A stretch of DNA of 64,000 bases from assembly GCA_037951105.1 (NCBI GenBank), contig JBAMJV010001373.1:41001-105000 (forward strand), written 5' to 3'. A model generated the notes under the pieces. It saw nothing but the letters and a program-made list of their open reading frames with translations, had not been told where the DNA came from and did not search any database. Of this stretch, positions 11,336 to 60,193 are shown in pieces. The translations under genes and the position numbers were made by a program. Each line of letters begins with the position of its first letter. The stretch's first letter is position 1. This DNA is from Echinarachnius parma. Its lineage: Eukaryota; Echinodermata; Echinoidea; Clypeasteroida; Echinarachniidae.

Positions 11336-14300
11336 CTGAATATAATAGAAAAGAAGAAATAAAGAGCGAAAGTGAAGAAAAGATGGGAACAATATTGCAT
11401 CCTGGTCAAGAAGAAGTTAAATCTCTCAAATAACTCAACTAGAATGCTGCGCACATCAGGTGGTTGTCGGAAGCTGAGGTTAATCTTTAAAAAAAGAGAA
11501 AAAAAAGCTCAGTATTCTCCTTACAAAGCAGACTAATCTTGCCAATCATCTGAATGGAACTATACACTATGTAACATAAGCTAAAATGAACAATCATTGA
11601 GAAAATATAAAATCAATATCAATAAACTTCCTTCAATTTTACTTTACAACTCTTGTAGAGTTTCAGAAATAATATATTAAACATTTAATTTTTCAGAATC
11701 AAAACATGCAATATTTTTGTCTCAACTAGAATTTACTTCACTTCAATGAGGGCATGAAGAATACTTTGCATTAACTTAAATTACTGTACTTAAACAAACT
11801 GTGAAATAATATCTACTAACCCGTTTGTTGCCTTCCATGGCCTTGTCCCTGGGTCCTGTATCCGCCAAGGGGAACGCCAGTCCTGAGGGATCCTCTATCA
11901 GCACGGTTTGGTGACTGCCCCATCCTGTCCTGGGATACCTTCTGCCCCCTAGGTCTGGACCTCTCCTCTGGACCAACTCTTGATGTAAAAGGTTCTCCAT
12001 CTTCTTGGTGGTAGTCTGGGTAGATGTTATTATGCAGGGAAGGAATTTTCTCATGGGCGGCACCTTGGTGGGGTATTCTGCTCTGGGGTATATGGGGTAC
12101 ATATCCACCCATTTGGGGGTGGGGTACACCATGGGTACTGCTTGTATGGGGTAATCTTCTCTGGGGTATGCTTTCTGTTGTTCTGGGGTATGATACACTG
12201 CCACTTATTCCTTGAGGTAGCATATCATCTGCAACACCTGGATGAGTCCTGCCTCTTTGATCATGAGGTATGTGACCCCTTACCCCAGCGTGAGGTATTC
12301 CGATATTGCGGGGTACCCTGTTGGCTGTCCGTTGGTGGGGCAATCCATCTCCCACTTCTCTGTGAAGCATGGAAGCTGCTCTTTGATCCTGGGGTACATG
12401 ACCTGTTACCCCAGTGTGAGGTATGCTACCAGGTACCCCACCGACATAACCTTGAGGTACACTTCTATTTCTTGGTACCCCAGTGACCCTGGAATTGGGG
12501 GCGGCAGTCATTGCCTGCTGGCCTTGATGTGCTCCTGGCATTCTATAGTCTCTATCGCCAGCTGAAGAGTCCACTGCTTCTCGAGTCTCTGCGTCCAGGA
12601 TAGCAGTGATGTTGCCAATTTGCTGTGTAGGATCGTGCCCTCGGAATGGTTGCTCAGTGGCACCTAGGAAAGGAAACGAAGTAATAAACTTGCCTTTAAT
12701 GAATGATAGTATACAAGATATCCTTTTTTTCTATTTCATTTGAAAAGAAAAGAAAGTAACTGTATCCATTCATAGTGGCAAGAGGTTATTGCTATATTAT
12801 CTAGAAACAGTAATCTATGTTCATGTATGTATAAGAAATGTAACTGCAAAACTGGAAAAATTATGTTAATCTTCTCAATTCTCATACATTTTACAATTAA
12901 ATTTTATTAACACTTGTATACCAAAAACATAAGTACCAAAATCTATGTACATGTATATGAAATTTAACTGAAAACAGGAAAAGTTTATCTTTTAAATGCT
13001 CACTCTTTTGTCAATTTTCCCATAAATACTTGTACCAAAACAAATATTCACACAGAACAAATAATGACATTGATGTGGCAAAATTATCTTTAAAAGTCCC
13101 ACCCGACTCACCTCGTCTCCTATCCACTCTTGGATGCAAGGAGGCATATCCTTGAATGTCGTCACGACCATTAGCAGCTTCCATCTCTTCTCTCGTCTCA
13201 TACCAAGCTTGAACTGCATCCCCATCCTCCTCCTCCTCAACATAATCTTCATCCTCATCATCATCAATATCAAAGTACTCCTCGTCTCGCTGTCCATACC
13301 TCTGATCCCAATAGACATGGTCCTGCATTGTGGAGTACTGCTGGTCTGTTCTTTGTCCATATTGTTCAATACCTTCTGGGGGGAACTTGGTGGATGCGTG
13401 CTCCTCCATGTCCATAATACCATTTGCGGCTGGATGTTGTTCCCATGACGACATTGGAGCATGGTTCTGTCCCACAGGCCTTGCACCTCTTTGTCCATCT
13501 GTTGGAATTCTATAATGAATATCTTGACTGACAGGATCCTCTCCTCTCCCGTAAATTGGTCCACCTACTCCACCTTGCCTTTGGCTCTCAGTCTTGCTCT
13601 GTTGCAAGTATTTTCTCCTCACATTCTCATATCCTGTGTCGTTTCCTGAGCTTAGAATACTGTCCATCAACTGCTGCTGCGACTGGTGACTCAGTTGCAA
13701 CTTCTGCATCTGTATCTCCAGCTGCTTCTCGTGCAACAGCTTCTCTTGCTGAAGCAACTTGTGTTGCAGCCAATCCTGCTCTTGTTGCAACCGGTCCCTC
13801 ACCGATCCAAGTGTCTGTTGCCTCTGCTGAGGTGCCAGGCTTCGATAATCTTCCCATTCCTCATTGTTTTCATCTTCCTTCTCAATACCCTGAGGTCCAT
13901 AGCTCCTGTAACGAGGATCATCCACACCTGAGGACTCCTTGAGATGTGACTCGACAGTACTTGGAAGGTTCCCATTCATCTCTGGTAGTGATGCCCACCC
14001 ATCACTCTGGGGTACCCTCTCACTGGATCTCTGGACACGAGCGTGCTGGTCAGGGTCGTCAGAACTCTTGGTGAAGTCTGTAACCTCTTGGAGAGGTAGG
14101 AATGTATCAGGACTGAGTCTATTTCTAGATCCAGGCTCTGGGATAGTTTGCTGTAAACTACCCAGTCCGTTATGGGGTTGACGCCGTTTGTTCTTTGAAC
14201 TGGCAACTGCTGGCGATAGTTCATACATCCTTTGTTGTTTCCTTGATAAAGCATTTGATAATCCGCTCTGAACAGCTTCTGTTTCTTGCCGAGTAGAATC

Positions 14301-17300
14301 GGTAATGACCCTTGACTGGTGTTGCTGCCGGTAAGTGCTGCTTAAAACCGGATTAAACTGGTCTGCTCCATCCTTGAACTGGGAGTTTCTCTCCTGATGT
14401 TTATGGAATAAGGCATCTCTCGATGGCTGGAATACATTGTTAGATATGGGAGATGTTTTTGTCGCACATTGATTTGATTCGGCAGGACTTTGATCAGGTA
14501 TGGGTTGGAGCTGGAAGAATTTCTGCTGCGAATCTTGCGAGGGAGGATATGACACTGGAATCATTTTGCTGCTTTCTTTGATAGGGGACCAGCCAGAGTG
14601 AGATGCATTTTCCTGTAAAATAATTAATAACAATTTATTAAATTAATGAATCAGATAAGACAAAAATACATTTAAGTAATTAATCAATATATATTGAAAG
14701 TTTATTTTATCAAAAGCAAATTTTCTCACATTCGTTTTAAAAATTCAATTATGCAGACATAAGAGAAGTAAATGTCAAAAGTTAATGTCAAAAGTTATAA
14801 TGAAAATTTGATTCGCCAATGATGAATTGTTCAAAGCAGATCAATGACAAAATGCTGCCATGTAAAATCAGCCCTGTTGACTGACGTGGCTTTTATTATG
14901 GTAACGGGTGTGTAGAAGTGTCTGATGTGGCTATTCCATGGATTACAAGGCCAGCAGATTATGGGATTATTTATGGCGCCGTAAAATTACCATTTCTTAA
15001 TTTGCTTTACGTGGCGCTTACAGCAACACTTTACAGGAATGCGTGACTGCAATATTTACCTTGTGAGGGATGTGAGAACTCCTCTCATGAAGAGAATTGG
15101 ACAACTTCTCCTGGTTCTCAGAGACCTTGGTCTGGTAGGAAGACAGGAGCTTCTGGCAATCCAGGTACTGCAGTTGGATATGTGATGGTACCGTTAAGGA
15201 TTATTATAGACTTGGATGAGATGAACATGCAAAATATAACCTTATTTCAAACCACACAACAGCAAATGGCTTTTAAGATGATGCTATTACCAACTACAAA
15301 CAATACTTTAAGGGATTTAGTATCCTGAAGGGTTGATAAAATGTGTATTTCTAAACTTTCCGGAAAATATTAGTATACCAACCATAAATAAAATGATATT
15401 CTACTGCAAGCCAACTACTCGCAAAAATGTAGCTATTTATACAGACAAATCAAAGGATATTTTCTCTCTCTTTCAAGATGGCAGCTAGTTGGGTGTGCAA
15501 CCCCTTAGTTTTCATCTTGTTCTCTTTCCTCTCCACCTGGAGCTGCTGCAGAGCAACCTCCTTCTCCTCTCCAATCCTGAAAAAAAACCAAACAAACAAA
15601 CAATCCAAAATATTATGCAGACAGAAAGGATTTGGTACCAAGAGTTTGTTAGATGTTCCTGCTCTTCCCTCTCCACTTGGAGCTGCTGCAGAGCAACCTC
15701 CTTCTCCTCTCCAATCCTGAAAATAACAACAAAACATGCAATTTTGTCACTCATCTGATATTATGCAGACAGAAAGAGTTTGTTACATTTTTATTCTCTT
15801 TCCTCTCCACTTGGAGCTGCTGCAGAGCAACCTCCTTCTCCTCTCCAATCCTGAAAAACAAACAAAACAAACAAACATACAATCATTTCACTCATCTGAT
15901 ACAATGCAGACAGAAAGAGTTTTCATTCTCTTTGCTCTCCACCTGAAGCTGCTGCAGAGCAACCTCCTTCTCCTCTCCAATCCTGGAAACAACCACAAAA
16001 CAAACATATAATCATTTCACTCATCTGATACAATGCAGACAGAAAGAGTTTGGTACATGTATAGAGTATTAGAGTTTGTTAAATTTTCATTCTCTTTCCT
16101 CTCTTCTTGGAGCTGCTGCAGAGCAACCTCCTTCTCCTCTCCAATCCTTAAAAAAAACACAAAAAAACAAAAAAACATAATCATTGAAATCATCTGATAC
16201 AATGCAGACAGAAAGAGTTTGGTACAAAGAGTTTGTTCAATTTTCATTCTCTTTCCTCTCCACCTGAAGCTGCTGCAGAGCAACCTCCTTCTCCTCTCCA
16301 ATCCTGAAAAACAAACAAACAAACAAACATATAATCATTTCACTAATATTATGCAGACAGAAAGAGTATTTCATTGCATCCGTATAGCCAGAGCTTGACA
16401 CTAGAACTTGCCTGATTGCCCTGGGAAAGTAAAAGTTGATACTGGGACAGTAAAAATTCATACATGGTAATAATTGCTCAACTACTGGAGAAAATGCAAT
16501 TTCTAAATGTAAATCTCATCTAGAGGTATGTATGCAAACTGTACATTTTCTGCTGGGACAAGTGAAATTGGAAAGTTTATGATTTTACTTGCCCAAGCAG
16601 TGGAGAAAAAAGTTTGGATGCTTGATTTAGCATTGTCATTTATTATTTCTGTGTTTAATTAGCTTTTGTTCATAAGCCTCATATTTTGGTTTCTAATGTA
16701 TTGCTATTAAAAAAAATACAAACTAGATGGATCTTCGACTGCGCGCAGTCGAAAATTATGCCTCCGCTATGACGCGATTTTTAATATCAAGCCCAAAATA
16801 ACGTGCACTGAATTTTTTTTTTTCCATATATATATTTTGAGTTCTGTGACCTTGACCTTGACCATAAACTTTGATGGTTACATTGGCTCCCAAGAAAAAT
16901 TCAGGTACCAAGTTAGATTGAAATCTGACATTCAGTTCTTGAGATTTTGCCATTACAAGCAATGTTTGCATACATATTGAGTCATGTGACCTTGACCTTT
17001 GACCTCATGACCCCCAAATCTAATCCAATCATTGCCACCCCGATGTGTATGTAACTCATTCCAAGTTTGAAATTGATCCGTCAAACGGTTCTTGAGATAT
17101 TGCGAGAAGGATGCTTTTTTGCGCATATATTGAGTCCTGCGAACTTGACCTTTCACCTCATGAACCCCAAAATCTAATCGGATCATTGTCACCCCAATAT
17201 GTACACTCATACCAAGTTTGAAATTGATCCATCAACCGGTTCTAGAGATATCGCGAGAACAAGGCGTTTTTGCACATATATCGAGTCCTGTGACCTTGAC

Positions 17301-20300
17301 CTTTGACCTCATGAACCCCAAAATCTAATCAGATCATTGTCTCCCCAATATACACTCATACCAAGTTTGAATTTGATCTGTCAACCGGTTCTAGAGATAT
17401 CGCGAGAACGAGGCATTTTTGAACATACATTGAGTCCTGTGACCTTGACCTTTGCCCTCATGAACCCCAAAATCTAATCAGATCATTGTCTCCCCAATAT
17501 TTACACTCATGCCAAGTTTGAATTTGATCTGTCAACCGGTTCTAGAGATATCCCGAGAACGAGGTATTTTTTAACATATATTGAGTCCTGTGACCTTGAC
17601 CTTTGACCTCATGAACCCCAAAATCTAATCAGATCATTGTCCCCCCAATATGTACACTCAAACCAAGTTTGAAATTGATCCATCAACCGGTTCTTGAGAT
17701 ATCGCGAGAACGAAAACGGGACGTACGTACGGACGGACGTACGTACGGACGGACGTACGTACGGACGGACGGACGGACAACCCGAAAACATAATGCCTCC
17801 GGCCACTTCGTTGGCGGAGGCATAATAACAAATACACAACAAACAACAAATGGTCAGTAAAATCAATTTTGAGTGCTTTCAAACTGTAAACAGTGTGACA
17901 AACACGAGACAGAACTTTTATAACTCACTTTGCAAGTTCTTTGATGAGGTTAGCAACGCGTTTCTTGTCCTCTACCCTTAGGTCTTTCAGAGAGGGCGCT
18001 TCCTTTGAAGGACTTCTTCTTTCATCCTGCAAATTGCAAAACATGAGGTTATATCAAGTGATGAACTCAATCATTTACTTTCCTATTCAGCATTCATAAA
18101 GTAATTGGCAAACAAATTAAAAATATTACTAAAGTGGAGGCACTAGGGTGTTTAACTTTGACAGTTAAAAGGGCTGTTGCAAACATTCTATACAAAATTA
18201 CAGAAAATAGCAAATGACATATTTATGTTTTTTAACAACATGAGTATGACTAGTAATTTTCTATTTATTTGTATTCATTGATACGGTATCTTCCAAACTC
18301 AAGGGAAGAGCACCCTAATCAGCCACTGGCCATTGTTCGTGGAGGTCCTACAACCAAACAGACAGCCCCAATATGCTAGTTAAATAAATTGAAAGAATTA
18401 GACAGAACAATACTAGAGTAGTCCAGTTGGCGATTTAAAAAGTTTAGTGACATTCCCTGCACATTACCTTGAACAAGTCGTTGGGTGACAGTGAGAAAGG
18501 CAGTAAGTCAAATTGTTTGCCTAACTGAATTCTGCATTATTGGGTCAGAGACTCAGAGCCCCATCTTGGTAATGCCAAATTTTCAAATAGTTTCTTAACA
18601 TTTTTGAAATATCTATCAACAATTAAAAAGAGCTACATTTGGTTCCTACAGGGATCCCAAACTTAAAACACAATTATCTCTGAGACTTTTCTTCTCTTTC
18701 TCAACCGACAAAGTGATAGCAGAACAACATACACCTGTTTTTAGACGTTTCCTTTCCCTTCTTTGGTTGGCTTCTCACTGGCTTGAGTCTTTACTTGCTC
18801 CTTCCTGTGACCCATCCTCTGCTAACTCGGCCAATGTTCTTTATTCTCAGTGCAACACCTTGTACAAAACAAGTGATAGCAGAACAACATACTTGTTTTG
18901 AGACGTTTCCTTTCCCCTCTTTGGTTGGCTTCTCACTCGATTGAGTCTTTTCTTTCCCCTTCCTGTGAGCCACCCTCTGCTTGTTCAGTCAATGTTCTTT
19001 ATTCCCAGCGCAATCCCTTGAATAAGTGATAGTAGAACAGAACAACATACCTGTTTTGAGACGTTTCCTTTGCCTTCTTTGGTTGGCTTCTCACTGGCTT
19101 GAATCTTTGCTTGCCCCTTCCTGTGTCCCATCCTCTGCTTGCTCTGTACGACGACCTGTTGTCTGGACATTGTGTATGTCTTCTTGGCACCCGTAGCTGT
19201 GTCTGTTACTCCTGGCAAGGGAAAATGCAAGCGTGACATATTTGTATGTGAAGTTGTGATAAAACTACAGTAATAATGCCATTCGTTGGTTGACAAGTAT
19301 TGTCCTGCACAATACCGCAGCAACATAGAAATCTCATAAACTTAATTTTTTAGTAAGAATTAAAGCATAGTATGCAATTTATTGATATTTCTTTTAATTT
19401 ATTCATCATCTTATACCTTGTATCTTATTTGTCATATACTGTAAACATAATAACTTTCATAGAATTTGACTTGATTTAGGATGCATGCATACATTGCATA
19501 GTTGTTGCTTACATACCTGGAACATGCGCACTCCTTCGAGACATGGGGTTCAAGTCTGCATCACTTTCTAAATAGAGAAAAAATATATAGAGATGAGTCT
19601 TAAAAACCTAGATCATTGTAGGAATTCAAATATAAAGAGAAAATTTAATGGAATAGCACATTATTGTGTACTGGAGGTGTTGCATAAAAAGTTTAGATTA
19701 ATTGCAAAGTTGCGATCGATTGCAAATCTGAAAATGTGCCTAAATACGCAAATCTGATTGGCTCAGATGCGCATATTTTCAGACTTGCAATTAATCGAAA
19801 CTTTGCAATTGATCGCAGCTCTTTATCATTTATGCAACACCTCCAGGTACCACAGAAACAGCTTCATGCATTGATCATCATTTGATGGAATACATTTGAT
19901 CATCAAAATGACTAATAGGTTTAAATCACATCTAAAATGAAAATGGTCTTAGTCTTACTAAAGGGAATATTAACATTTATTATTATTTTAAACTTCCACA
20001 TTGTCATTAGACGTCTGTCAAAAGAATTTCACCCCTTTACATGGTAATGAATGCAAAATAAATTTTAGAGTGCAAATTCATGCAGGCGAGCTTTAAAAGT
20101 AGCCCCATAAATAAAATGTTATTAAAAGCTTTTTTTTCCCTGCCCTGCATAAAATTTAAAATGAACATCAGCGTTCATGTGCAGTGACATTGCTAAAAAA
20201 AAAAAAATCAATTTGTTGTAAAATGTCTTCACAAATAGGTTGCATGCACCCCTACAAGACAAGGGGTTAACAGCATGCTGCATTAACCCCTTACTCCATT

Positions 20301-26363: not shown

Positions 26364-29300
26364 CTGTGGAGATAGAAATGAGAAATTAAATGGAAAGGTT
26401 ATTACATAGATGTCCTACTCATACAGAACCATGCCCACAAATTAAGTATTAAATCTGCAGAGTTTCGCCTAATACTGCATTATCCATACATGGATAAATG
26501 TTTCAAAAACATAATTGAAAATCCTTGACATATTGATAACAACTTACAAGTAAACTATGCAAGGAAACAAATGAGTTGACATTTTTGATACAGAACTAAA
26601 TATTAAGTAATAAATAAAATTCACAAAGAAAAACACATCTTTCCCCGTTTAGTTACTAGTATCATGCTTTTTCCAAAATAGTAATTACAAAAAGAAAATA
26701 TTTCAACAGTACCGAAAGCAAACGCATTCTAAAAGCCTGTTTGGTAGCATCTTGTCTTCTATACCAGACCTTTTCAAGAGCACTATAACCCCTTTCACTT
26801 TCATATCAACATCTATTCACTCCAGTTTCAAATTTTGGTAAAAACATTAATCTCATTTGGGGCTTTGATTTCTCTCTGTATGGTGGACGAGTTCTGAAAT
26901 AAGTAAAATATACCTTACTCCTATTTTGTTACAACTTCTTAAGTACTATTCAAGTGATCCATAAATTCAGAAGGCTTTTCTTTGAGACTTTAATTATATA
27001 CCAATATCATTGTAAGATTTTCTCAGTGTGTCATGTGTGATAGTTTCATGGAAAAGGAACACTGTTGTGGATATGGAGTGAACAAAATTGAAATTTATGT
27101 CAGATTGTATCACCAACTGATTGATTTTCACTACAATACAAAAGCATTACGGAAATAAAATTAAAACCCATTTCATTCTTCTTGTAAATATGGAAGCTCC
27201 CAAGTGATTTTGGTTGAATATGACAAAATTAATGGATCACTTTAAATGGCAAATTGGCAACTCTCCCCTATTGATTACATACCTCCTGCTTCTGCTTCTG
27301 CTGTGACTGCGTCCGCGGCGTGGTGGGGGAGTGCGAGAGCGGGACCTGTTGGGATGAAGAACAACATAGTACTTTAGCATACAAGGCAACAACAACACAC
27401 ATGTACTTACCTTGTTTCGTCCCAGTCTAGGGAATCCCTTGTCTAATTCATTAGGGAAAAATGCATGTTCATGTCATTATCATAATTTTCTCTTCTTTAA
27501 AATTTTCCACTGTTCGTCACAGCTCAGTTTAACTATCAATATGGTCTTCATAGATTTTTGAGCATTTTGTTCAGTAATATGACTTACAATATGAATCTAA
27601 AATGTAAAATCACAATCTTCTTTAAAAATGTAAGTTTTCATTGAATTATGGGTTTTAGTTGGTTTTCATCAATGTGGTTTATATTCTTTCAGTTTCAATG
27701 CAGTAAAGGATCTTTGTGAAAGTAATATAAAGTGGTGATGTTCACCAATATACTAATCTCAATTCAAGTCAAAATTATGTTTTAGAATATGTTGACTGAT
27801 ATATAAATAGATTCTTGAGTCCATCTGACCAAAGCTAAATAGAGGAAAATGGTGATTAGAACAAGACTTATACAGCCTTCTTTACATGCTGATTTTCTCA
27901 AAACTTTGTACTTATAAAGAATTTAAACAGCAAAATAAGACCTTGCACTTACTACATATGTACATGTACCTCTTTTCTCCATCAAATGCTAGAAAGGTGA
28001 AGAAATGACTAGCGGGGGGAAAAGATCACCAGTGAAGGACTTACGCAGGACACAGAAGGACGCGCTTTGTACTATGGTAGCCAGACGCATACGTGATCTT
28101 TTAAAACATGTGTGCAGACCTGACGAAAACTAGTATAACCCTGAAGCCGTAGCCAAATTTGAAGCCGAACTATGTCGCCGTCGCATATGTGTGTGCACTG
28201 CATTTCGACGTGCCGGTGCTAAGACTTGGCAGACGTGACTGACGTTACTACGCCGATTCTTTTCTTTTGGGAGAAATTTTGTGGCGAGAAATAATTTTTC
28301 GACCACTGGATTTTGAGCGTAGAAATTTCTCTAGGCCTCTGACGTGCAGATTTTGAAGCAGGGGGAGGCAGTGTGATACCTCCCCACTCGCCGACCTGAT
28401 ATCCTATCGTGAAAAGATCACATTCCGTCAACTGCCCCCTGGAGGGAGGGCCGTGCGCAGGTGTGCGACATAGACGCCCACTGGAGTGGAGGGTTTACAA
28501 GGCGTTACGTGTTACATGATTGAGAAGCCCTGTGACATTGAGAACCCTGAAAGAAGGCAAGGAGGAAGTGGGATGGTCAATATTGTCTGACCTAGGGTCA
28601 ATTTTAAATAGTGTAACAATCTACAAGTCTGTTAATAAATGTATCAATGTCCTTCATATAATCACCCTTTCTCATACAATATTTAAATCAACATACAATT
28701 TTACATGACACAAGAAAAAAAAGGAAACATTTATATAATTAAATGGGAAAATATAAACTGATCTTTATATTAAATAAAACATGAAACATAGAATATTCCC
28801 ATTCAAACAAAATTAAATTTTCTGTTTGTGTGATAACAAACGAACAAAAGTGAATTGTCATTTGGAGGCAAAGAGTCATCATAGTCCATGGAGATATTCC
28901 AAAAATTATAACAAGATTTATAATTCATATTCTAGAACCCAAATTCCCAAAATGAAGTCACAAAAATAATAAAGGTAAAATAACCATTTCAAATAACTGT
29001 TTATCAGTCAATATTGCCAGCAGAAAGCTGGCAAAATAAATTGGGTAATTACTCAAATCTTATGGTACAATTTTTTCCCCCATTAAATCAAAGCCTGAGA
29101 TGACATGTCTGAAAGACTGCCCACACACGAGGAGCACTCACCTGGAGTAGCTTCGTCGACCTCTACCACCACCACCACCGCCGCCGCCCCCTGAGCCGCG
29201 TTTACGACACTCCCGGGCAAAGTGGCCTGGTTCTCCGCACTCGTAGCATTTGCCGTCACCTCGTGGAGGACCCCTGCCGCCACCAAATCTTCCTCCTCCT

Positions 29301-30019
29301 CCTCCTCCTCCGCCGCCTCCACCTCCTCTTCCTCCAAAGCTACGTCGTCTGGACTCACCGGAGGACAGCTCTACTCGGGCACGCTGTCCACAGATGGTGC
29401 TGTGGGAAGACAAAAGCATTGATTATCAATAAAGAACTCTCATTATCAGAAAACACAAAGGTCCTAAAAAGGAATCTCCATATAGTGGGACAGTACATGT
29501 ACTTGTTAACTTGTTGGCACATTTCTGACTCCACAGATTTTACAAATTTTAATTTGGAATCTTAAACTTCATCATTGAAAAGGGTGGAAAATTTAATACT
29601 TAATAGTGGAAATGATATGTAAGCATTTTAGCAGCGCATTTTTATTGACACAATATTTAGCTAAAATATGTCATCTGAGGCAACTGCATGATGCATACAT
29701 GTACAATATATAAGTTGAAACAAGTTGCAATTATAGCATTGAAGAGGCCTTACCTTGAATCAAGATCTTTCACAGCATCAGAGGCATCCCTGGGGTCTTC
29801 AAACTCTACGAAGGCAAAGCCTGGTGGGTTCCTTGCGATCCATACACTCCTCAGGTGTCCATAGCTACCAAACGTCCTCTCCAGTTCAGTTTTGCTGGCT
29901 TCATTTCCCAGGTTTCCAACGTAGACCTTGGCACCGCCGCCGCCGCCACGGTCGCCGCTTCCACGGTCGCCACCACCTCCCGAGGACCTACTTTGACTGT
30001 ACCGAGACATGTCGCCCAT
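26357..30019 (-). CDS. SRSF7: SRSF7-like serine/arginine-rich splicing factor, 197 residues
   Basis: Coding exons: 30019-29754, 29399-29142, 27345-27283 and 26363-26357 (594 nt, all junctions in phase 2). Residues 31-101 form an RRM with RNP2 VYVGNL (32-37) and RNP1 GFAFVEF (67-73); the [11 protein letters not shown] string is typical of SRSF3/SRSF7. A Gly tract (12 G in a row) leads to a CCHC zinc knuckle C140-x2-C-x4-H-x4-C153, which marks the SRSF7/9G8 branch rather than SRSF3. A second Gly tract and a short RS tail (about 175-197) end the protein. It should bind pre-mRNA in the nucleus and promote exon definition and mRNA export, as known for the family. At 197 residues it is shorter than vertebrate SRSF7, mostly through a brief RS domain. 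An alternative last exon near 26893 cannot be excluded. Confidence 0.87.
27283..27345 (-). CDS. SRSF7: SRSF7-like exon 3 (RS domain)
   Basis: 63 nt between ATCCCAACAG and GAG|GTATGT. It encodes [20 protein letters not shown], the RS domain that SR-protein kinases phosphorylate in this family. Confidence 0.85.
28045..28438 (-). other. Candidate poison exon in the SRSF7-like gene
   Basis: This GC- and CpG-rich island lies in the intron between the zinc-knuckle and RS exons. An acceptor CTCCCTCCAG and a strong donor TGC|GTAAGT bound 394 nt. Joined to exon 2 the frame stays open for about 70 codons, then meets TAG near 28219. SRSF7 in vertebrates has a stop-containing exon in the matching intron. 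It could instead be an alternative promoter. Confidence 0.35.
29142..29399 (-). CDS. SRSF7: SRSF7-like exon 2 (RRM end, Gly tracts, zinc knuckle)
   Basis: 258 nt from acceptor CTTCCCACAG to donor CCAG|GTGAGT. It encodes [20 protein letters not shown], Gly tracts, and the knuckle [14 protein letters not shown]. Confidence 0.88.
29754..30019 (-). CDS. SRSF7: SRSF7-like exon 1 (start, RRM)
   Basis: The ATG at 30019-30017 is preceded by GTTAG and a splice acceptor (CTCTCTGAAAG) at about 30035, so the 5' UTR is split. A second in-frame ATG is three codons on. It encodes a Gly-rich lead and most of the RRM; donor CAAG|GTAAGG. Confidence 0.88.
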
Positions 30020-32943: not shown

Positions 32944-33717
32944 CTATACAGGGTGGCCCAGAACGGAAGGGGGTAGGCCTACTTGCCATTATAAAGAAAC
33001 ATACAGACTAGGTTCACTGGATAGATAATCTTTTAAAAGGAAATTTGCTATCAACAACATTAATTTTGGTCGAGTAGTTTTTGTTTTAGGGCGTCTTAAG
33101 TGACACCATGTCAGGGTCAACTTTTTGTCAATTTCTAGAAATTCGGTGCCTGAAAAATAACAATTCATGCCCGTCATAGCATCAAGGAGTGATCAATGCG
33201 AATACTTGCGAAATATTGTCCATGTGCATTCATGCCCCTTCGGATAGGCGACATCGGTTTTACAGCTGAATGCACATGGACAAAAGAATTCGTATTGATT
33301 GCTACTTGGTCCATATGGCGGGCATGAATGGCACCGATTTTCTAGAAATTGACAAAAATTTGACCCTGACATGGTGTCACTTAAAGCCCGGCGCAGACAG
33401 AGCCGACTCGACCCGACCCGACTGGTTTCAATCAGGCTAGAGTTGGGCCCGGTCGGTCGGAGCAGATTTATCTTGTTGAATCGGCCCCAACTGGCATCCG
33501 ACTGTCTCTCGACTGGCAAAATGTGTGTCGCGAGGCACTGAAAACTGAGCCGATCGGAATGACAACCAGTCGAGTCGGCTCTGTCTGCGCCGGGCATAAG
33601 ATTTACTGTTCTTGGTATCAAATTTCCTTTCAAAAGATTATCTATCAAGTGAACCTATGTACGCTTCTTTATAATGGCAAGTTTCCCGTTCCGTTATTTC
33701 TGGGCCACCCTGTATAG
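32944..33717. mobile_element. Foldback MITE (CAGGGTGGCCCA ends), carrying a nested MITE
   Basis: Long inverted arms end in CTATACAGGGTGGCCCAGAA and TTTCTGGGCCACCCTGTATAG, consistent with a TA duplication and mariner-like termini. The arms share GTGACACCATGTCAGGGTCAA. The right arm is interrupted at 33386-33595 by another element. A second family member lies at 58864-59372. Confidence 0.8.
33386..33595. mobile_element. Nested inverted-repeat element inside the foldback MITE
   Basis: Ends GCCCGGCGCAGACAGAGCCG and CGGCTCTGTCTGCGCCGGGC are exact inverted repeats; the arms continue through GACTCGACC and the GGTCGAGTC-like partner. It interrupts the right arm of the outer element, so it arrived later. 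Confidence 0.8.
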
Positions 33718-34679
33718 AAGCATGATACAATTAAGATTTAGTTACTCAGCTTGCAAGCACTGTTCCGTCTACTTCAAAGCATTAGCTTTTTAGTTACAAT
33801 GACAGACCATTATAATTGCCTGCATGCATGGCGGTCCGTAACGGATGCACTAACATTTTATTTAAATGAACCAGCATTTACGAAGGCCATGCACATTTGT
33901 GTCTCCTTTTTTTTTTAAATTCAAATTCTGAGGCTCCTTTTTTCAGTGGTGTGCTATTGGTTATTAAACATATTATTAGAAAGATCATCCCCTGAAGTAT
34001 GGACCATACCATATCTCAGATTGGATGGATCTTCAAAGAGCTTCCAGTCTCTACAAACAAAATAAACAAGTAATATTTATTTTACCTTTCGTTACCCGAC
34101 CTAGCTCTTTGAAATTGAACAAGGTCAACTTGAACTCTACAATCAGAAAGGAAATCAATGAAAAAATTGATCAGACGGAAACATATAGAAAGTATAATTA
34201 TATATTAAATTCCCCAGTGTGAACTACTGGACGGGAAGACCTGCATTTCATTGACCAGGGGATATTGAACCACTAGTCTGACATAATTTAAATTATCTTA
34301 ATTATTTTATCATGATTTTGCGGTTATGACTATAATTATTTGATAATTTGATAATATGACATCTTGTTCCTTCATTTGTGTGGTAAGAACTGGGACTTAT
34401 TATGAATTACCCAAATTTCCGTCAGAAAGTAATGATTCGCGGGTGATTTATTTATAGTTCAGATCGAGTTCCACTATTCAAGTTCGTGGTCAGTATAAGT
34501 ATGTACGGTCAAGCGTCACGGTGCAAAGCCGTGCGTATGGTGTTATAGTTCAAATTGCTTGTATATAGGAATGATCCATGTCAGTGGTCAGGTGGTGTGG
34601 CTTAATTTATCAGCTTCCCCTCTCATCATACTTTTAAATACAAATAATGAATACAGCAGATATACATTTGTAAAGGGAG

Positions 34680-34967
34680 TGGTGTAGCTATAGGGGCCGG
34701 GGCGGGGGGCATGTGCCCTTCATGTGGTTTGTCAAGGGCAATGGCCCCCTTTTTTTGGGGTATCAGGCAACGATAGGTCTTGTTGATACCCCTCCCCCCC
34801 CCCGTTTACACAACTAGACCAGTGGTCTCGGCCTCGGCGACGGACACCCCCCCCCCCCCCCCCCCCCCGCGACTCTCAATCAGTGGTCTCGGTCTCGGCA
34901 TCGGTCTAGGATCCGTTTTTGTAAAATATATCGCACCCCTTGAAAAATCCTGGCTACGGGCCTGAAT
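34680..34967. mobile_element. GTGGCGTAGC-family element, C-rich copy
   Basis: Left GTGGTGTAGCTATAGGGGCC, right CCTGGCTACGGGCC, with C runs at about 34793-34803 and 34848-34868. The internal GTGGTCTCGGCCTCGGCG repeats partly. Confidence 0.45.
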
Positions 34968-35156
34968 ATGACTAGAGAGGTTACCTATTACGTCGTATAT
35001 AGTGCCGATAATTAAACTAATGACGTCCAATTGAAACATGTTATGGATAAGACTCATTATGCTGATGGAGGCGGGGCAGTTAAAACAAATTTGCAACACA
35101 TTTGTAGTGCAAACAAGGTGGAACACTGAATCAAGGTATAGTATGAACGTTTATAT

Positions 35157-35371
35157 GAGTGGCGTAGCGCCGGGGGCATGGGGGCACAAAATCCCAAATA
35201 ATGTAATACATGATAACAAATCATGAGGGAAAACCCGTTACAAATAAAAGAATATACATTTAGTCTAAATTTTAGAGTGCATATTGACATGTCCCCCCAT
35301 GCAGCCCCAGCCCCCCGGTTCCGCGGCCCCTGCATGCCCACTCCCCGTCATTCCGGCCACGCTACGCCACT
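35157..35371. mobile_element. GTGGCGTAGC-family element
   Basis: Left end GAGTGGCGTAGCGCC and right end GGCCACGCTACGCCACTT are inverted. The interior holds a fragment of the second family (GGTTCCGCGGCCCCTG), so it may be composite. Confidence 0.6.
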
Positions 35372-36244
35372 TTAATCATAGATAATAAGCATCTCGTTTC
35401 ATGACTTCATTATCTTGTCATGGGTAATAAAAACTAGTAGACACTGAAACATTTCATCTGACGCCAAGCCAGACATTACATGCATGATCATCGGATGAGA
35501 AGCTACAACTTAATACAAGACTACAGCATTTTTTTTTTGTTACGTCACCGTTGACGATGACTCAGCCCCAATCATTCCGGCCCCTGTGCACGACTCGTCA
35601 GCGCGACCTTGAACCAATTACTTGATATTACTTGATCAAGGGTCGAACAGCGGGACGAGACGGAATGGGGGCGAATATAATCAGGAGAAGGTTGAGCCGA
35701 TGACAGTTCCATGTTGATGGCCGTGATGATGATACTGAGACAACCTTTGAAACATTAGGATGGACGAATGCACTGTCGCTCATGGGAGTCCCTTGACGCA
35801 CACATTTGCATTGACATTGAGTATGGTCCGCCTGTGGAAGCTATCATGTTCATTGCTTGATTCAAACTATAACAAAAATCATGTTTAAATGTCACATTCC
35901 TATTCGCAGTGACAGCCAATGTCAGACATATATAATGTGTGCAGGTAAAGCATGAAAAGTGAAGATGACGGAAAGAAATAGCTTCATTATTATTTAATGT
36001 ATAGTGAGTATAACAAAGAAACAAATCACGCTGAGAAAGAGAAGACGTGTATACATACAATGACTAATGAAGCGAAATTGTTTCATTAGTTTCACTCTAT
36101 ATATTGTAAAGTAGAGAATGATTACAAATGAATTTCAATTCCTACTTGTTGTTTTATTCCAAATTAAATAAGACACTGATCGCGATAATATCATTAATTT
36201 GTTAATTTGTTTGCACAATTACATAATATGAAATAGAAGCTTAT

Positions 36245-36433
36245 GAGAGTGGTGTATCTATACGCGGGTATTACTGTCGCACACGTGATCCCAATAATTT
36301 GAAGACAAAACAGTAACAACATTGTATATAGGGGAATTCTTAAAAAGCCTACATAATTATATAGAGTGTGTCCCAAATAACTCGCGCGACCCCCCCCCCC
36401 CCCCCTATCAGTCCGACCACACTACGCCACTGA
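36245..36433. mobile_element. GTGGCGTAGC-family element with C run
   Basis: Left end AGAGTGGTGTATCTAT, right end CAGTCCGACCACACTACGCCACTG, and a C run at about 36390-36406 just inside the right end. Confidence 0.5.
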
Positions 36434-39400
36434 AGCTTATTTATTATGTTCTGCCAAACCCACGTGCATGTATTACTGAATAAACAACAACATTAATTGA
36501 CTATGGGCTCCTTTATCTACAAGGGGAACCAAGGTTGTAAATATAATAAATTATATACATTGGCATGCCGCGTCAAAACATTTATTTGGCTAAATTGAGT
36601 TCGTTTGCCAGATTTGCCAGATTAGTCCCAATCTCAGAGGTGACAAATCGAATTTAGAACAGCCATAATTATATGGAGCAAGATTCAAGGGGCCTTCTGA
36701 CTGGATAAACAAAGTCTATACATTCCGCTATATCAAGTTAACTTGCAATACTAATTATTGCGTACATCCACAACTGTATAACGTGAAGAGGTGGGATGGG
36801 GCTAATAATATGCATGGGCTCTATATAATTATCATAATGGGGGGGGGGGGGGGGGGGGGTATCCCATGGACTGTATAGCTGCATTGGCTGTCAACTCAAT
36901 GCTTCACGTGATATAGCTTGAAAGTTTATCAAATGTTAATTTCCTTCCACTCTAAACGGGGAGAGGGGGGGGGGGTGGGGGGGCAGGGGCGTCAGATACA
37001 ACTTTATGAAAGTATATTAACATACGATCTGACCAACAAGGAAAAGACCAGCTGCAGTTAGTTGCCAGGGCTGTTGACAATTGAAAATACATCGTCCCAT
37101 CCGGATGAGATGGTACAAACATTAGCATTGAACTCTGGTTTAGGGGTCTGCGTGCGTTCTGTGTTCTGAGAAATGTGACGGAAATGACCATCAAGAAGAC
37201 AGCAAGATCCATGGCCAATCTACTAAAACAATAATTTAATAACACGCATGAGTGGCATTATACCCAGCCTATAGGTCAGAGTTAAGAGTACGACAATTCC
37301 CCTCGTGTGGAAGCCCCCCCCCCCCCCCCCCACCCCCTCCCTGGAAACAAATTAATGTAAAGTTAACTGGATACGCCATTAACACAATGTAATAACAGGT
37401 GTATATATGACATTAAGAATGGAATCAAAGAAATGATCAGAAATATTGATAATTATGCTGAAAAGAAAATTTGATAAAACTGGAAAGAACAAAATAAAGA
37501 ACATGTTCCTGGGTACATTATTCTGTCAACAAAATTTGCAGAGAACATAATAATGATAGAAATCATGCCTAATCGTATACCGCCCGACTTGACGGTTGAC
37601 GAGAGTTTCATTTATCTCAAATCTATATACCCTGACTTAAACGGATGCAATCACGGAAGTTTGCTTCGTTATCTATAGCTCATAATCCTTCAAATATCCA
37701 GTATAGTTTTGGCACATATTCAGTCAGACGAGATTTTCCTCTGATGAGCCGCTATAGAAAAGCAAATAATTATGTTGTAAACAACGTCCGAGAGAAAAAA
37801 AAAGTACATTCCCTGGATGGATGGACTGGCCAAACATGTGGCCGGATAAGGATATAGATCCTAGCTGCTGACTTGACCTTGTAGACAAGACACAGTCCGG
37901 TTGCCAAGAGCTGCTCGAATAACAAAAATAAGGATGTTATATGATATCTGTGCCAACAAATTTCCTCGTTTATACTACATCTTGATAGGTTATTTTATTT
38001 AATGTATTTCTTATCATACTCAAATAATAGTTGAGACTATAGAAAAATAAAATCGGACATAATAATATATAGGAAAATGCAATTAATAAATAATAAGAAC
38101 AAATATAGAGCCATAAAGATTTAACAACAACAACATTTATGTAAAAAGGCATAATATGATGGGCATAACTATAACTATGCGTTAATCCGTACATAATGAT
38201 ACAGTTTGAAAATATTTGATTTCTCATAATAATTATAGAAAAATGAATAGCAAAATATTGCATTTTATTTTGACGAGAGGAGAGGGGAGGGGTGGCTACT
38301 GCATTACTCGTTTGATCTGATGGCATCTCCATTCCCCAAGAAGTCCAGGGCCATTCAACAGCTGGCGAACAACAGTCATGCAGTGCCTTTTCTTTTCTTT
38401 TATTGTTCAACTGTCACGAGAAGCATTAATATCTTGAAATGACTGATGACTGTCAGAAGGGAAATAATTAATTAACAAATTGATTTAAAATTAAGCTGTA
38501 ATGTTCTGTTTGTAAGAAAGTGTGTTTCAGTGTTTGTGTGCCAGTAGAGTATATTATGAGTGTATACTATATATAGGTTTGTGACATTTCATGCATGTGT
38601 GAACTTTATGGACCACTAACTTCACGTGACGTCATAATATGGCAAGTGTCACATGGTGACGTTCCTCTCTTATATAATTGGTTGGCGGTCACAAGACCGG
38701 GAGTATTAGTTTGTACACCTTTATATTTTGTACAACTATTATATTTATTTGCTCGCTGACATATAGTTCGTCCTTATAAATATCTTGCGCCATCTTGCGT
38801 AACGTTTTGCTTCTGAGAGGATGTAGACCTGTCATCTTATCATCATGATTGTGTTTATTGTTTACCTCAAACGGGCGTGGCATTAGTTGCAAACAAAAAA
38901 TTATACATTGTTATGTACTGCTAATATCTCGAGGGAGATTTTATCTATAAAACCTAACTCACGTTTTGTTGGTGTGGCTTTACCCTTTCCTGCAAGGCTG
39001 CAACCACACAATGACGTAAAATATCCACTTAAATTTCAGAGTAAAACCGGCAAGTTGAAGTAGGCCACTGGTCATGTAATACGATCGCTGAGTTACAAAA
39101 TTTCAAAAAGATCAACCGCACAGTAAGAGAGAAATCAGTCTGGGTCTTGAGATCAAGACGGCAAGCAGTCAGGGCGGTGGTGAGAGGGGGCGGAGTTAGG
39201 AACTGGCTCCCACTGAGAATATATATGCCGGCGAGATGAAGGTCTTGAAATTGAATTGAACAAATTGGCGACCAATGCATGTTTTGTCTGACAAATGACG
39301 TCTTGAGGAGTTGGGATCGTTTGATATGTTTTTCCTTCAGATTATCTTCATTCATTTTTATAGGAGTAAGCTGTATGTTACTCTGTTGTCTTAATGCAGT

Positions 39401-46300: not shown

Positions 46301-49300
46301 GGAATTCCCCTTTAAATCGTTTACAATCTAGTGTTGTACACTTGTGTGCATGTACTGTACTTTTCAGCATTTTAAAAAATGTATAAGAGCCATTTCCCGG
46401 ATTAGATTTATCAGGGCAAGGCGTACGTAGCACCTGTTTTTTTTTTTTTTGGGGGGGGGGGGGCATTGGGGCCGGGGAAGTGCCCCCTTAATTGCAATAT
46501 ACAAATTATAGAGGTACACCGTCCCTCACAAAAAAAATCAATATAGTATGCTCCGATAATATTTATATATATATACAAAATAGAATCAGTCTGATTACAC
46601 TATACGCCACTGTATCAGGGAGTGACGGAGTGCATTTATCTCTTCATCAGTACGTTCCAAACATGGAAATGTATTAAATGGATAGTTGAGTTCTGCATGT
46701 TAAAGAGAGTATACAGTTTTGGTAAAACTTGAATTTTAGTACCCAAAACCTGCACCATTACATAACAAACTGATAGTTATAACTACCCCATGCTCGAAAG
46801 GAATACAAAATTACTAAAGACCAAGTAAAAAGCCCAGTGTTATTATTAAAAACGAGCCGTTAAAACTCAAGAGGGCGCTCTCTAAACCCTCATTGGTTTA
46901 ACCATTTTAAATAAGATATTGTGCATGTGATGTTTTGTTGAAATAGTGATTAGATATAGAGATAATCAACAACTATTTAAAAACCTCTTTTGTAACATTT
47001 TTGAAAATGAGGAAGCATTTAATTTGTAACTCCTTGAGTGCCAAGCTCACACTTTTGCGAGTTACAATACACACAAATGCCATAGAGCATTAAACCCCTG
47101 GCACATTCAAAATTCTCGAATAATTGTGGGGCCCCACAAATATTACAAATGGTTATGTTTATGGATATTTCAGCCATAAAACCGATTTTGATCAAATCAA
47201 GTTTATTCTGTCATTAAAATTGTATGCTCTTCCGAATTTGACAGGCTCAGTTTTTCAGTATCTCACAAAACTCAACTATCCCTTTAAACTTTACAATTTT
47301 GGAAAACACGCACGTGCAGTAAGCCCAATGTTTTTATCGACGAAATTTGAGAGAGCCATTCGGAAATCCTCCTTTGTAGAGCCCGAGCGCCCCCTCCCCC
47401 ACCCTCCCCGGTACTGTACACCCCTGATACACCTCGACGCGCAAACATTCAAATTGAATTATATCGCCAATGAATCGCCCCCAACCCCCCCCCCCCCCCC
47501 AAAAAAAAAAAAAACAAAAAAAAACAAAACAACAACAGAAAAAACAAACAAACTCAAAAACACAATTAAAAAACGACAAAAAAAACCACAAAAAACATCA
47601 AACAAACAACGAACAAACAGTTGAAAACCCAAACATTCAAACTTTTGTCATGACTCGCAATTCATATCGGCTCCTGCTATTCATGGTATGCCATGCAAAC
47701 ATAAATTTTAATGTTGTCAGTGCCACACTGCCAAGTCAGTATGCCTATATATTTACAGGGGCCGCGGAACCGGGGGGGGGGGGGGGGGCTATTTTTTGGC
47801 TTAAAACAAAGAAATAAATAAGCATAAAATAATGAAATATATAACAGTTCAAATGTGGTCAGCCCCTCTACTTTCAAAACCTTTCCGCGGCCCCTGATTT
47901 ATGAAAAAATGGATTAATATTGAGTGAAGCGTCACCATCTGCATAAAATCATAAACAAATAAATACGGTCTAGTTTAAAGACTACCTATCATTGATTTTT
48001 TTTAAGTGACAGGCTTGGGTGAATGGATCGGATACACACGCACAAAGACGTATCGCATAGCGCGCATGTTTACACACTACACACACACACACACACTACA
48101 CACACATGTTATACGATTCCTTTTGTATCAGTGGTGTATTTCGCGCGTGTAGTCACGTGATATAGCTAAATTTACGCGCGGATTTCAGAAGATCGTAGCC
48201 GCGCGAAAATGAACTCGTAGGCAAAGTGCGCCATCTTTAACGTGTCGGCCTTGTGGCCCAATGGATAAGGCATCTGACTACGAATCAGGGGATTCCAGGT
48301 TCGAGTCCTGGCAAGGTCGAATTTTTTTCGTTTTGATTTCATCATTTTTATAGGGTTTCATTAGTAAATAGACTTGATATCGTTTTGAAGATCTATATTT
48401 CGATTGTCCTGGTTTTACGTTTTATATTGTATAGCTTGTCGAAATAAATTACTATTAAAAATACAAACATAATAACATGAGTTTTTCTAACATATTTTGT
48501 TTGTAGGATTAATCCTTTTAAAAAACAAACCAGGAATTAACAAACATGCAAACTACGTTCCATCCCATGTGCATTGCGGTTGTCTATTCCCGAAAATAAT
48601 GGATTTTTTATGTCACAAAGGAAAATATTTAATTTCATTATTTTTATTCCAGCGGGAAGGGGTTGCAATGCTGCAACGAGGTAGTATTACGTAGTGTTAG
48701 TGTTACTGTTACATCCTTATTTTCATTTTAGTGTCATAGTTCTAATAAATATCCACTCTTATTTTTGCAATATTTAAAATAATAAGAAAAAACGGTTGAC
48801 AGTACTAATATTATAATGACAATGGCTGGCGTAGTGTGGTTGGAGTTGGACTGAATGGGATAGGGGGGGGGGGGGGGGTGCACCGCGGCAAAACAAAAAA
48901 TGGAAGACAATATACAGGGGCCGCGGAAAGGTTTTGAAAGTGGGGGGGGGGGGGGGGGGCTGACCACATTTGAATTGTTATTATAGTTGTTATGTTATGC
49001 TTATGACATACCGTGACGTCATGACCTTATGTTTATTCATGAACGCCTGGCCCTCACGCTACGTTTGGCTCAAAAGTAACTACCCCTGCGGACACTCGTC
49101 CTATTTTATAGCGCCTACTTCGTACGCCTTTGTTGACAGTGTCACCGATCGGTGTGTATGCTCCATTGATCACGGCACGCGCCATTATTCTAATTTTAGC
49201 GCGCGGTTTTTTCAAAAGCGGATCTTTGCATTGAACGTACGTAGGCGAACTCGGTGCATCGTACACAAAATATATTGGTCTGGTCGCCAAAGTTCGCACT

Positions 49301-52300
49301 ATGAACGCGTCGGCCTTGTGGCCCAATGGATAAGGCATCTGACTACGAATCAGGGGATTCCAGGTTCGAGTCCTGGCAAGGTCGCATTTTTTATTTTTAT
49401 CAGTCGACTAAAATGTACATGTAATTTAAAATCTATAACAACATACATTTTATTTGAAATTAGTAATATTCTACAGTATTTACCTTTTCTCACGTCAAGA
49501 TATGGATGTAGCCTATTTGTATAATAATAGACATTGATTGTTATGGTTATGGGTGTAACTACTTGTATTTCAACACATTTTTGTTGTTAAAAGTGGTCAA
49601 ATTTTGGGGTGAAAGTAAAACTCAGTCGGAGCGGATTTTAATTAGTAATTTTAAACTTGTTATTCCTTTCAAGCATGGTGGCGTTATAACTATTAGTTTG
49701 TAATGTAATGGTGCAGGTTTTGGTTACTAAAATTATGTTTGACCAAAACTGTACTCTCTTTACCAAAACTCAAATATCCCTTTAACATGACAATGTTCAC
49801 ACAATACTTAGAGGACATATAAAAAGAACTACATAATTTTTACCAACCATTCATCACTTTCTGCACAAACGTCATGCCAATAAAGTTACTAGATGCATAG
49901 GGACTAAGTGCCTCTAAGTGAAAGGTGGCGCTATTTTGGATGGAATGACAGATACTGAAGAGTGTAAGTAGAATTTTGTCTTGTGAATCCTTACATCACC
50001 ATACTCGATCGTTGTGTATAATAAACGGCCATGGTGTATAAACGGGTGAGGGGGGGGGGGGGGGGGGGGCACTCCCAATATTTTTTAGAGAAAAAAAAAC
50101 AGGGAAAATGGTATGGCCAAAGGTATGACAATGCAAACTCGTTTTATTTGACTCACTTGCCCCCTTAGTTGAACTGCGCTTCTTATTTTGTGCTCAGGAA
50201 GATGCATTATAGAGTAAAAACTGTTTGTTTCCATTTTGCTTGGGGAAAAGGGGGAGGATAAATATTTGGGCAAAAGACCTCAGGCCCCTCCCCCCCCCCC
50301 CCCCTCCTCTTCCTGGAAAAAATGTGCCCGTATGCATTTTGGAAGATGCTGGGTTTAATCGTAATACTTTGTAATTTTAAACGGACAGTAACATTGCCCA
50401 AATCCTCAAAATTTACTTGGAACTCGACTACCCAGCTAGCCACCTGACGTCGGGCCGATGTCGGAAGTTGGTTGCCGGATGTCGGCATATCGCCGTTGGC
50501 TCGAGGTTAAAATGTCCGCCAGCCCAACATCGTCACGACGTCATTTTTGTGATATATTGGCATAACGTCATTTCCCGACAATGGCCCAACATCATGTCAT
50601 GAGATGATGTTGGGCCATTGTCGAAAAAAGACGTTATGCCAATATATCACAAAAATGACGTCGTGACGATGTTGGGCTGGCGGACATTTTAACCTCGAGC
50701 CAACGGCGATATGCCGACATCCGGCAACCAACTTCCGACATCGGCCCGACGTCAGGTGGCTAGCTGGGTAGTGGTTCTCTGGGACAGGTTTCGGGTTTGT
50801 CAAATTTCCATTTTTGTTCAAAAGCTATTTACGATTGAAGTGTTCGGATGTTAAACTATCTACGGGATCGTATAGAAGCCGTGTACGAAGTAAGTGCAAT
50901 GACTTTGTGCATATATCACTTTGCATTTTCACTCATTTCTCGGCCAAACAATATCAAATTAACATGAAATTTTCAAACATTACTTTCTGGACATATCAGA
51001 TCACTCCAATACACATTTCATTAACCACGCATCATTTTTTGCACTTGTCAACAAAGTTACTAATTTTTTTAGTGTCGACACTAACAAATTAATTCCACTT
51101 GCCCTATTGTAGCCTCCTCGACTTCGCTTCGTTTTCGCAATGGGGCAACCTTAAAGGTAGTTCAGATTCGTCAAATGAGATGCGCGGCGCCATCTTGCAT
51201 ACGCGTTGCTCACGGTGCGTAATGCACGTTAGCTCAGTGTCATGCGGTGCGCGCAAACTAACCCAGTTCAAAATGGCGACCCGCTATGTAGCATCCCCAC
51301 GCTTGATGCCCTTTAATTCATGATCTTTTTGTTGTTGTTGTTGTTGTTGTTGTTGTTTGTCCATGATGATGCAGGGCTTTGTGGAAGGTGAGACCAATGA
51401 CTGGACAGTTAGGGACTGTAATTCCTATAATCGTTGTGTGCGACAGAGCGAACTTAATTCCACTCCCTCGTCCTCCTCGACCCCGCTTCCTTGTTGTCAT
51501 CCTCATAATGATCTTTTTGTTTGTTTCCTTTGTCCAGGAGGATGCAGGGTTTCGCGGAAGGCGAGGTCGATGATTACAGCGAGGAAGATTACTACTCGAT
51601 CATCCAGTACGATGACAAGGCCAAGGCGGACGTCGAGGAGATCCTCCGTCATCAGTGGACATCGAACAAGACCGCTCTCCTGGAGACAAGGTATGGTGCT
51701 CAGTGTCGTAGCGTGGACGGACTGATTGGGAAGGGGGCACACATATTATTGGGGGACTAGCTTATGTTTACTTTACTTTTACCTTATGTTTTTTGGGCCA
51801 AATTATTGGGGGGGGGGGGGGGCACGTCCCATCCCCCGTGCCCCTCCCCCAGTGTTACGCCGCTGATGGTGTTTTATATTGTTACCTATAATCAAAACCC
51901 AATTTTTAAACTAATTCCATGATCGAAGTATGGCTGAATTGCGGTGTTAAATTATGTTTTCATTGTGGTATTAGTAATCTGGGTAGAAAGCTTTCTTTTT
52001 TCATTACCCGCCATGCAGAGCTGAGATGCGGAAGTTCTTCAACCCGTACAAGATGATCACCATGACCTCAGACGACGACACGAGAGGGCAGCTGAAGCGG
52101 TTCTACAGCGCCAAGGCCCGCGCCATGACCATGGTCCCAGCCAACCTTCGGCGTCTCCTGCCCACTCGACAACTATTCCGCAATCAGCACTTCAAGACAT
52201 GCTCGGTGGTCGGCAACAGCGGGATCCTTCTGGACAGCGGCTGCGGCATCAGCATCGACACAGCCGACTTCGCCATCCGGTGCAACTTTGCCACCATCAA

Positions 52301-55602: not shown

Positions 55603-56267
55603 TTAATAACTTTTCGGAGGGATCTGCTCTGCTGACGACCCTCCAGTCTCTGCGGCCGAGGCAGAGGCACCTGGATTGTTCGGAGCTAACTCCCCAGCGA
55701 AAAGGACCGTCTCTCCCACCCCCGCTTCTGACCGGTAAGCCGGCGGTGGCTCCGGCATGTTAATGTGGACTCCCTGATGTGCTGCTATGTTGGGAGGGTA
55801 ACCATTAGGCGCCCCTTGGTTAACCTGGTTGACGACGGTCGTCATCCCTATCATGTTCTGTTGCGGACCAACTCCATGCCGGAGAGCGTTCTGCAGCCGC
55901 GCTCTCATCTCGTGCTGCTTATTTGCTTCCTCCACGATGAGCGGCATCTGGAAGAGGTCGGACACCCAGCCGACAAGGAAGAGACCCATGGTGCAGGCAT
56001 AGATGAGTCCTTTGCGCGTGTTACCCATGTAGAAGTGATGTAGTCCGAACATCCCCAGAGGGAACGCAAGGAGGTACGCATCTGACGTCACGTAAGGGTC
56101 CTTCCCGATGCGGGTGCCTTTCTTCATTAGCATGACGTCCGTGTTGGCCTTGTCCACCATGTAGGAGAGCCTGAATAGATCGATGAACCAGCCGAACATG
56201 AAGAACCCAAAGGAACAGGCGTGGAATGTCCCGTAGCGCTTGCGCCCCAGGTAGAAATGGTACAGTC
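55603..56267 (-). CDS. Triple-TM2 gene A, exon 2
   Basis: Acceptor CCCTTTTCAG; encodes most of TM2 unit 2, unit 3 and the PPPAY tail, ending PPKSY-TAA. Confidence 0.9.
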
Positions 56268-57158
56268 CTGAAAAGGGTAAGATCAGAGAAAGCAACTTTT
56301 CAGACACTGTCTTTATCAGACTCAATCAATTATAAATAAGAATGTACCTTTATTTATGTATGCATTGACCCAAAATATATCCTCCCGGGACCCCAGAGAC
56401 ATATGATATATTATTATCTGATATATGGGAATAATTTCCCATTCAATTCCCCCGCCACGTGTGATGACCCACCTGCGGAAACGACTGTCGATTATGATGT
56501 GTTTGTGTTATATTGAAAACAATCGAATGTCTAAGAAGATCCACATTAAAACTTAATCAATAAATAAAACCACACTATTCAGAGGACCAATATTACACTT
56601 CATGCCCTTGGACATTATAAGATACAGTTCAACACGGCCAAATAATCTTTTTTCACCACTTCGCCTCCCTGGGGAGCAACCATACCTAGCCCCCAAATGT
56701 AGATTAATCTAAAGCAACGTACCGAACATTCCGAATGGTGGAAGCCATAGGAGCAGCGCATCCAGGAAGCTCTTCTCGGTGAGGTAACCGGGATACTTCT
56801 TGCTGTTGATCCAGTGGCCTTTGGCTCTAGCCTCCGAGGCATCCTCGTTACACCTCCTGACCAATCTTCCAATCCTGCAGCAGTCGACAAGCCAGCCGAT
56901 GCCGAACAACCCGGCGGTGCAGGCGTAGACGATCCCGAAGAACTTCCGTCGCAGGTAGAAATGGTGGAGCCCGAAGATGCCTATGATGGGCCAGCACAGG
57001 GCAGCAGCCAGAGAGAACTTCTTGTCCCCTGCGGCGTGGCTCGGCGTCAGGAAGACTTCATCTGTGTACTGCGGCATGGTGTTGCGGTTTTTCTCCTCCT
57101 GTTCCTCGAAGGCCCTTCGCGCTGCCACCATATCAGTTCCACCACCTACATGCGTCAT
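55603..57158 (-). CDS. Triple-TM2-domain membrane protein with PPxY tail (gene A), 366 residues
   Basis: Exons 57158-56723 and 56267-55603 join in phase 1 inside the second TM2 domain. Three TM2 units (each two close hydrophobic helices with an H-H/Q-F-Y start) lie at about residues 52-98 (FGLHHFYLRRKFFG...GWLVDCCRI), 145-182 (GLYHFYLGRKRYG...GWFIDLFRL) and 218-256 (FGLHHFYMGNTRKG...GWVSDLFQM). The C-terminal tail is soluble, rich in Pro/Ala/Ser, and contains EPPPAY (318-323), a PPxY motif of the kind WW-domain proteins bind. Human TM2D proteins have one TM2 domain, so this is a different architecture; no function is assigned. A paralogue with the same layout lies at 62108-63999 on the same strand. 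The start is the first Met in the open frame. Confidence 0.9.
56723..57158 (-). CDS. Triple-TM2 gene A, exon 1
   Basis: Starts MTHVGGGTDMVAARRAFEEQ; encodes a soluble N-terminus and TM2 unit 1, ending LPPFGMFG at donor TTCG|GTACGT. Confidence 0.88.
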
Positions 57159-57612: not shown

Positions 57613-57621
57613 CTTTATATA
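57613..57621 (-). promoter_or_regulatory. Candidate TATA box for triple-TM2 gene A
   Basis: The reverse strand reads CTATATAAAGAGC about 460 nt upstream of the start codon. This would put transcription start near 57585 and imply a long or spliced 5' UTR. It is unproven. Confidence 0.35.
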
Positions 57622-60137: not shown

Positions 60138-60193
60138 TTAATGTCACGTTCGGGGAAAGCAAATTAATGTTCTGGTTAGTTATTGAATGATTG

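Follow-up and report, generated by a model that had tools for sequence, protein, structure and literature searches.

A probable U12-type AT-AC intron in the coiled-coil block of an animal hinderin (KIAA1328) gene

The pre-mRNA of an animal hinderin (KIAA1328) gene, read from the minus strand of the 64-kb stretch of DNA analysed here (the window), almost certainly contains an intron of the AT-AC subtype that is removed by the minor (U12-dependent) spliceosome. The motifs, their spacing, the phase and the continuity of the protein are seen directly in the sequence, and on these grounds the minor spliceosome very likely recognises the intron in vivo. The intron was located at 15182..15460, exactly where a preliminary description of this DNA had placed it, and on the minus strand (15460 to 15182) it reads ATATCCTTTGATTTG ... 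AATAATCCTTAACGGTACCATCAC. The features of the intron and of the gene model around it were as follows.

15182..15460, minus strand: probable U12-type AT-AC intron, 279 nt, phase 1, splitting an Asn codon (A|AT); from sequence, profile and frame
15452..15460, minus strand: 5' splice site ATATCCTTT; from motif
15193..15201, minus strand: branch site ATCCTTAAC, with candidate branch adenosines at 15195 and 15194; from motif
15182..15183, minus strand: terminal AC acceptor
21842-21788, minus strand: exon 1, tentative, from frames and splice sites
19567-19517, minus strand: exon 2, tentative, from frames and splice sites
19211-19051, minus strand: exon 3, tentative, from frames and splice sites
18524-18468, minus strand: exon 4, tentative, from frames and splice sites
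17929..18026, minus strand: exon 5, where the Pfam KIAA1328 match begins
15461..15576, minus strand: exon 6, 116 nt, with a U2-type acceptor TTTTTTTTCAG before it and the putative U12-type donor after it
15060..15181, minus strand: exon 7, starting IQLQYLDCQKLLSSYQ and followed by a GT donor (GTAAAT)
13112..14612, minus strand: exon 8, large, 1501 nt
12663-11821, minus strand: exon 9

The gene model is partial at its 3' side, covering exons 1 to 9 up to 11821. Seven of the eight introns in this model are GT-AG with matching phases, so that hinderin has one AT-AC intron among GT-AG introns, as in the known U12-type AT-AC cases described in PMC2831892. In human KIAA1328, the coiled-coil exons are followed by one large exon, and a similar order was found here, one exon number later. 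The compactness of the gene may point to an invertebrate.

Hall and Padgett's original AT-AC consensus, given in PMC2831892, has ATATCCTT as the donor and TCCTTAAC as the branch site, and the hinderin intron showed no mismatch to either: ATATCCTTT at 15460-15452 contains the donor, and an exact TCCTTAAC was found at 15200-15193 (both minus strand). The intron ends 13 and 12 nt after the two candidate branch adenosines, within the optimal branch-to-3' splice site distance of 11-13 nt reported in PMC3584512, and the stretch from the branch motif to the end of the intron, GGTACCATCAC, ends in AC and is without a distinct polypyrimidine tract. The donor, the branch motif 12 nt from the end and the terminal AC were thus all present as first described. 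Minor introns are reported to avoid phase 0 (PMC10639083), and phase 1 of the hinderin intron suits the minor type. In the splicing that these signals predict, ATATCCTTT and ATCCTTAAC would be recognised by U11/U12, the AC that ends the intron 12-13 nt beyond the branch adenosine would be used, and exons 6 and 7 would be joined inside the coiled-coil block. Retention of the intron, which carries an in-frame TGA stop at 15452-15450 (minus strand), would be expected to give a truncated product, as would skipping of exon 6 (116 nt, a frameshift).

The hexamer ATATCC is present as a direct repeat on the minus strand, once where the intron begins (15455-15460) and once where exon 7 begins (15176-15181), and consequently seven registers of the junction yield an identical mRNA. 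Their termini are AT-AC, TA-CA, AT-AT, TC-TA, CC-AT, CT-TC and TT-CC, among which AT-AC is the sole standard pair, and no other register starts with ATATCCTT. Through the same flanking repeat, exon 7 opens with the bases that also begin the U12 donor. The idea that the repeat marks an insertion was considered and then set aside.

To judge the junction from the protein side, the translated products were scored against the Pfam profile PF15369 (KIAA1328, hinderin; gathering cut-off 27). Exons 5-7 joined at 15461/15181 scored 90.6 bits with columns 1-92 matched continuously, while the part up to KEREN alone gave 44.4 bits (columns 1-57) and the part from IQLQ alone gave 32.2 bits (columns 59-92). 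Since the two matches end at column 57 and resume at column 59, the two sides abut around the split Asn codon, and the junction restores the reading ...KEREN-IQLQYLDC... in the coiled-coil block, as had been proposed. Reading through into the intron added only two residues before a stop and scored 45.4 bits. The nine-exon model of 1001 residues reached 88.3 bits (columns 1-255), no more than exons 5-7 alone; the family signal therefore lies in the block cut by the intron, which bears out the earlier statement that the best-conserved hinderin block is interrupted. The homology to hinderin itself was upheld as a match to the Pfam family, at 88.3-90.6 bits. A second AC, ending at 15188, is situated just 5 nt past the branch motif, and splicing to it gave 87.0 bits, against 90.6, with two extra residues. 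The choice between the two ACs is hardly settled by the protein, and the nearer one is disfavoured mainly by its branch distance of 6-7 nt.

Taken alone, the motifs are expected to turn up by chance in a stretch of 64 kb. The window has two occurrences of RTATCCTTT against 1.65 expected from shuffles and one of TCCTTAAC against 2.21 expected, and 11 of 120 Markov-simulated windows contained an AT donor, a branch and an AC within 500 nt. The chance of both motifs at one fixed junction is of the order of 1e-8 by arithmetic from the shuffle rates, an estimate that takes 7 registers and as many as 15 branch positions into account. What makes the motifs significant is their place, at the point where the match to a single Pfam profile has to be joined, between columns 57 and 59. 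Another donor-branch pairing in the window, at 33173-37855, spans 4.7 kb and falls outside every modelled gene.

The possibility of an ordinary intron, GT-AG or GC-AG, being removed instead, with a shorter coiled coil as the product and the AT-AC motifs as a coincidence, was weighed against the available donors. Exon 6 does contain GT dinucleotides (15557, 15536 and 15501) ahead of the in-frame stop, and the earlier claim that there is no GT donor before this stop was literally wrong; it is correct for the interval between the conserved KEREN and the TGA at 15452-15450, in which the sequence contains no GT. Five donors and nine acceptors make up 45 GT/GC-AG combinations that are in frame and free of stops, but every one of them costs at least 12 codons, and the four of the 45 that were scored (the least damaging one for four of the five donors) gave 47.1, 53.0, 54.1 and 55.3 bits against 90.6 for the AT-AC junction. 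In one weak alternative, the donor CAG|GTGGAG at 15536, which fits the U2-type consensus at 6 of 9 positions, is joined in frame to CTGCAG at 15168; this removes 30 codons of the profile-matching block (53.0 bits), and the 20 nt before the 15168 acceptor, CATCACATATCCAACTGCAG, include 11 pyrimidines with no run longer than 3. We regard an ordinary intron at this place as very improbable.

Removal of the AT-AC intron by the major spliceosome appears still more improbable. AT-AC introns of U2 type do exist in sodium channel genes, but these cases have G at +5 (PMC2831892), whereas the hinderin donor has CC at +5 and +6 and its perfect TCCTTAAC branch stands at minor-type spacing. A decayed gene or an assembly error, with no functional splice at all, was given an equally slight chance. 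The gene does contain two tandem arrays of exon fragments that are able to confuse assembly, but the AT-AC intron is outside both of them, the array copies differ from one another outside a common 36-mer, and the frame stays open across the nine modelled exons with matching phases. The U12-type AT-AC reading of the preliminary description draws its support from the donor, the branch, the spacing, CC at +5/+6, the lack of a pyrimidine tract, phase 1 and the profile.

When compared with known U12-type AT-AC introns, among which are cases common to human and fly, the hinderin intron has the same donor ATATCCTT, branch TCCTTAAC, terminal AC and short branch distance, in terms of the consensus in PMC2831892, and no difference in the core signals was seen. 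With 204 AT-AC orthologue clusters cited for U12DB (PMC2831892), the hinderin intron, to go by its signals, is ordinary in kind for animals, one well-formed case among very many. In a search of the full text of articles, KIAA1328 occurred in no paper alongside U12 or alongside 'minor splic', and neither KIAA1328 nor hinderin occurs in the main text of PMC6717393. AW554918, which we take to be the name of the mouse orthologue, was absent from papers on minor introns among the matches listed. A search of viral contigs for relatives of the spliced block gave eight pattern matches, none encoding a relative. A gene finder restricted to GT-AG would likely break the hinderin model at this intron.

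More unusual than the AT-AC intron itself is an array of copies next to it. The intron before exon 6 carries five truncated copies of that exon, each comprising its acceptor and roughly 60 nt from its 5' end, located as follows.

15681..16327, minus strand: array of the five partial copies
15681-15716, 15815-15850, 15947-15982, 16111-16146 and 16268-16303, minus strand: identical 36-mer in the copies

Exon 6 and the five copies share the 36-mer GATTGGAGAGGAGAAGGAGGTTGCTCTGCAGCAGCT without a difference, and a search of the 64-kb window allowing up to 3 mismatches found no other copy. Four of the five copies have an acceptor-like CAG end and one has AAG; all five lack the second half of exon 6 together with the U12 donor. 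Among the five copies, one of the first 38 columns was variable, compared with 8 in the following 24 and 17 in the 47 ungapped columns after those. The longest invariant run, 37 columns, was equalled in none of 20000 column permutations, a figure to be read with the caveats that the remainder has simple repeats, that 60 gapped columns were excluded and that columns are not independent. Conversion between the array copies may be the source of this identity. When the most upstream copy was read onward, a stop was met right after RKENEN, and exon 5 with this product scored 37.8 bits against PF15369.

The row of truncated copies is a natural competition experiment on whether a minor-intron donor helps the choice of a major-type acceptor. 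U11-59K is reported to bind the U2AF complex across an exon (PMC8034651), and U11 binding to activate an upstream U2-type acceptor in USSE genes (PMC8329584). The evidence for a minor-intron donor aiding major-type acceptor choice is described as still somewhat limited in the same review (PMC8329584). By analogy, U11 bound at the donor might help to pick the true exon 6 acceptor over the five near-identical upstream copies. We further considered a speculative and rather unlikely extension, in which the U12 donor would double as the selector of the true exon 6 acceptor among six through U11-to-U2AF bridging, the five copies would be kept as decoy or poison acceptors, and hinderin output would track minor-spliceosome activity. 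The USSE of SNRNP48 and RNPC3 likewise has a U12-type 5' site downstream of a U2-type acceptor that it could favour by exon definition (PMC8329584); however, tandem 5' sites are present there and do not serve as donors, while hinderin has only one such site, expected to work as a donor, and its effect on the acceptor is putative. The mutually exclusive exons of MAPK8/9 and TMEM87a/b, adjacent to minor introns, are alike in that competition among exons is linked to cross-spliceosome exon definition (PMC8329584), whereas the competing copies in hinderin are truncated fragments without a U12 donor and their splicing is putative.

The unchanged purine-rich stretch of the copies could also act as an exonic enhancer. 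Purine-rich enhancers in AT-AC splicing are reportedly the subject of a 1998 paper, going by its title as cited in PMC3584512.

Further repeats were observed within the gene. In a second array, at 18711-19144 (minus strand), the 3' part of exon 3 and its donor are repeated in 2.7 copies of ~158 nt, with the donor reading CAA|GTATG in one copy and CAG|GTGTATG in the other. The intron between exons 5 and 6 holds, at 16965-17778, a tandem repeat of ~150 nt in 4.9 copies that is rich in GTGACCTTGACCTTTGACC and is followed by a GGAC/GTAC microsatellite.

Elsewhere in the 64-kb window, Rfam at gathering scores detected no snRNA genes but two tRNA matches only, at 48247-48319 and 49312-49384 (plus strand), which have equal scores and are 1065 nt apart. 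Upstream of hinderin on the same strand, an RRM and a CCHC zinc knuckle were found in reading frames at 29141-30019 (minus strand), perhaps from an SRSF7-like splicing factor. Four reading frames with TM2 domains, all on one strand at 55603-63999 (minus strand), suggest a tandem family or a multi-domain gene. A fragment of a family 29 sialyltransferase was found at 52026-52583 (plus strand) with 105.3 bits.
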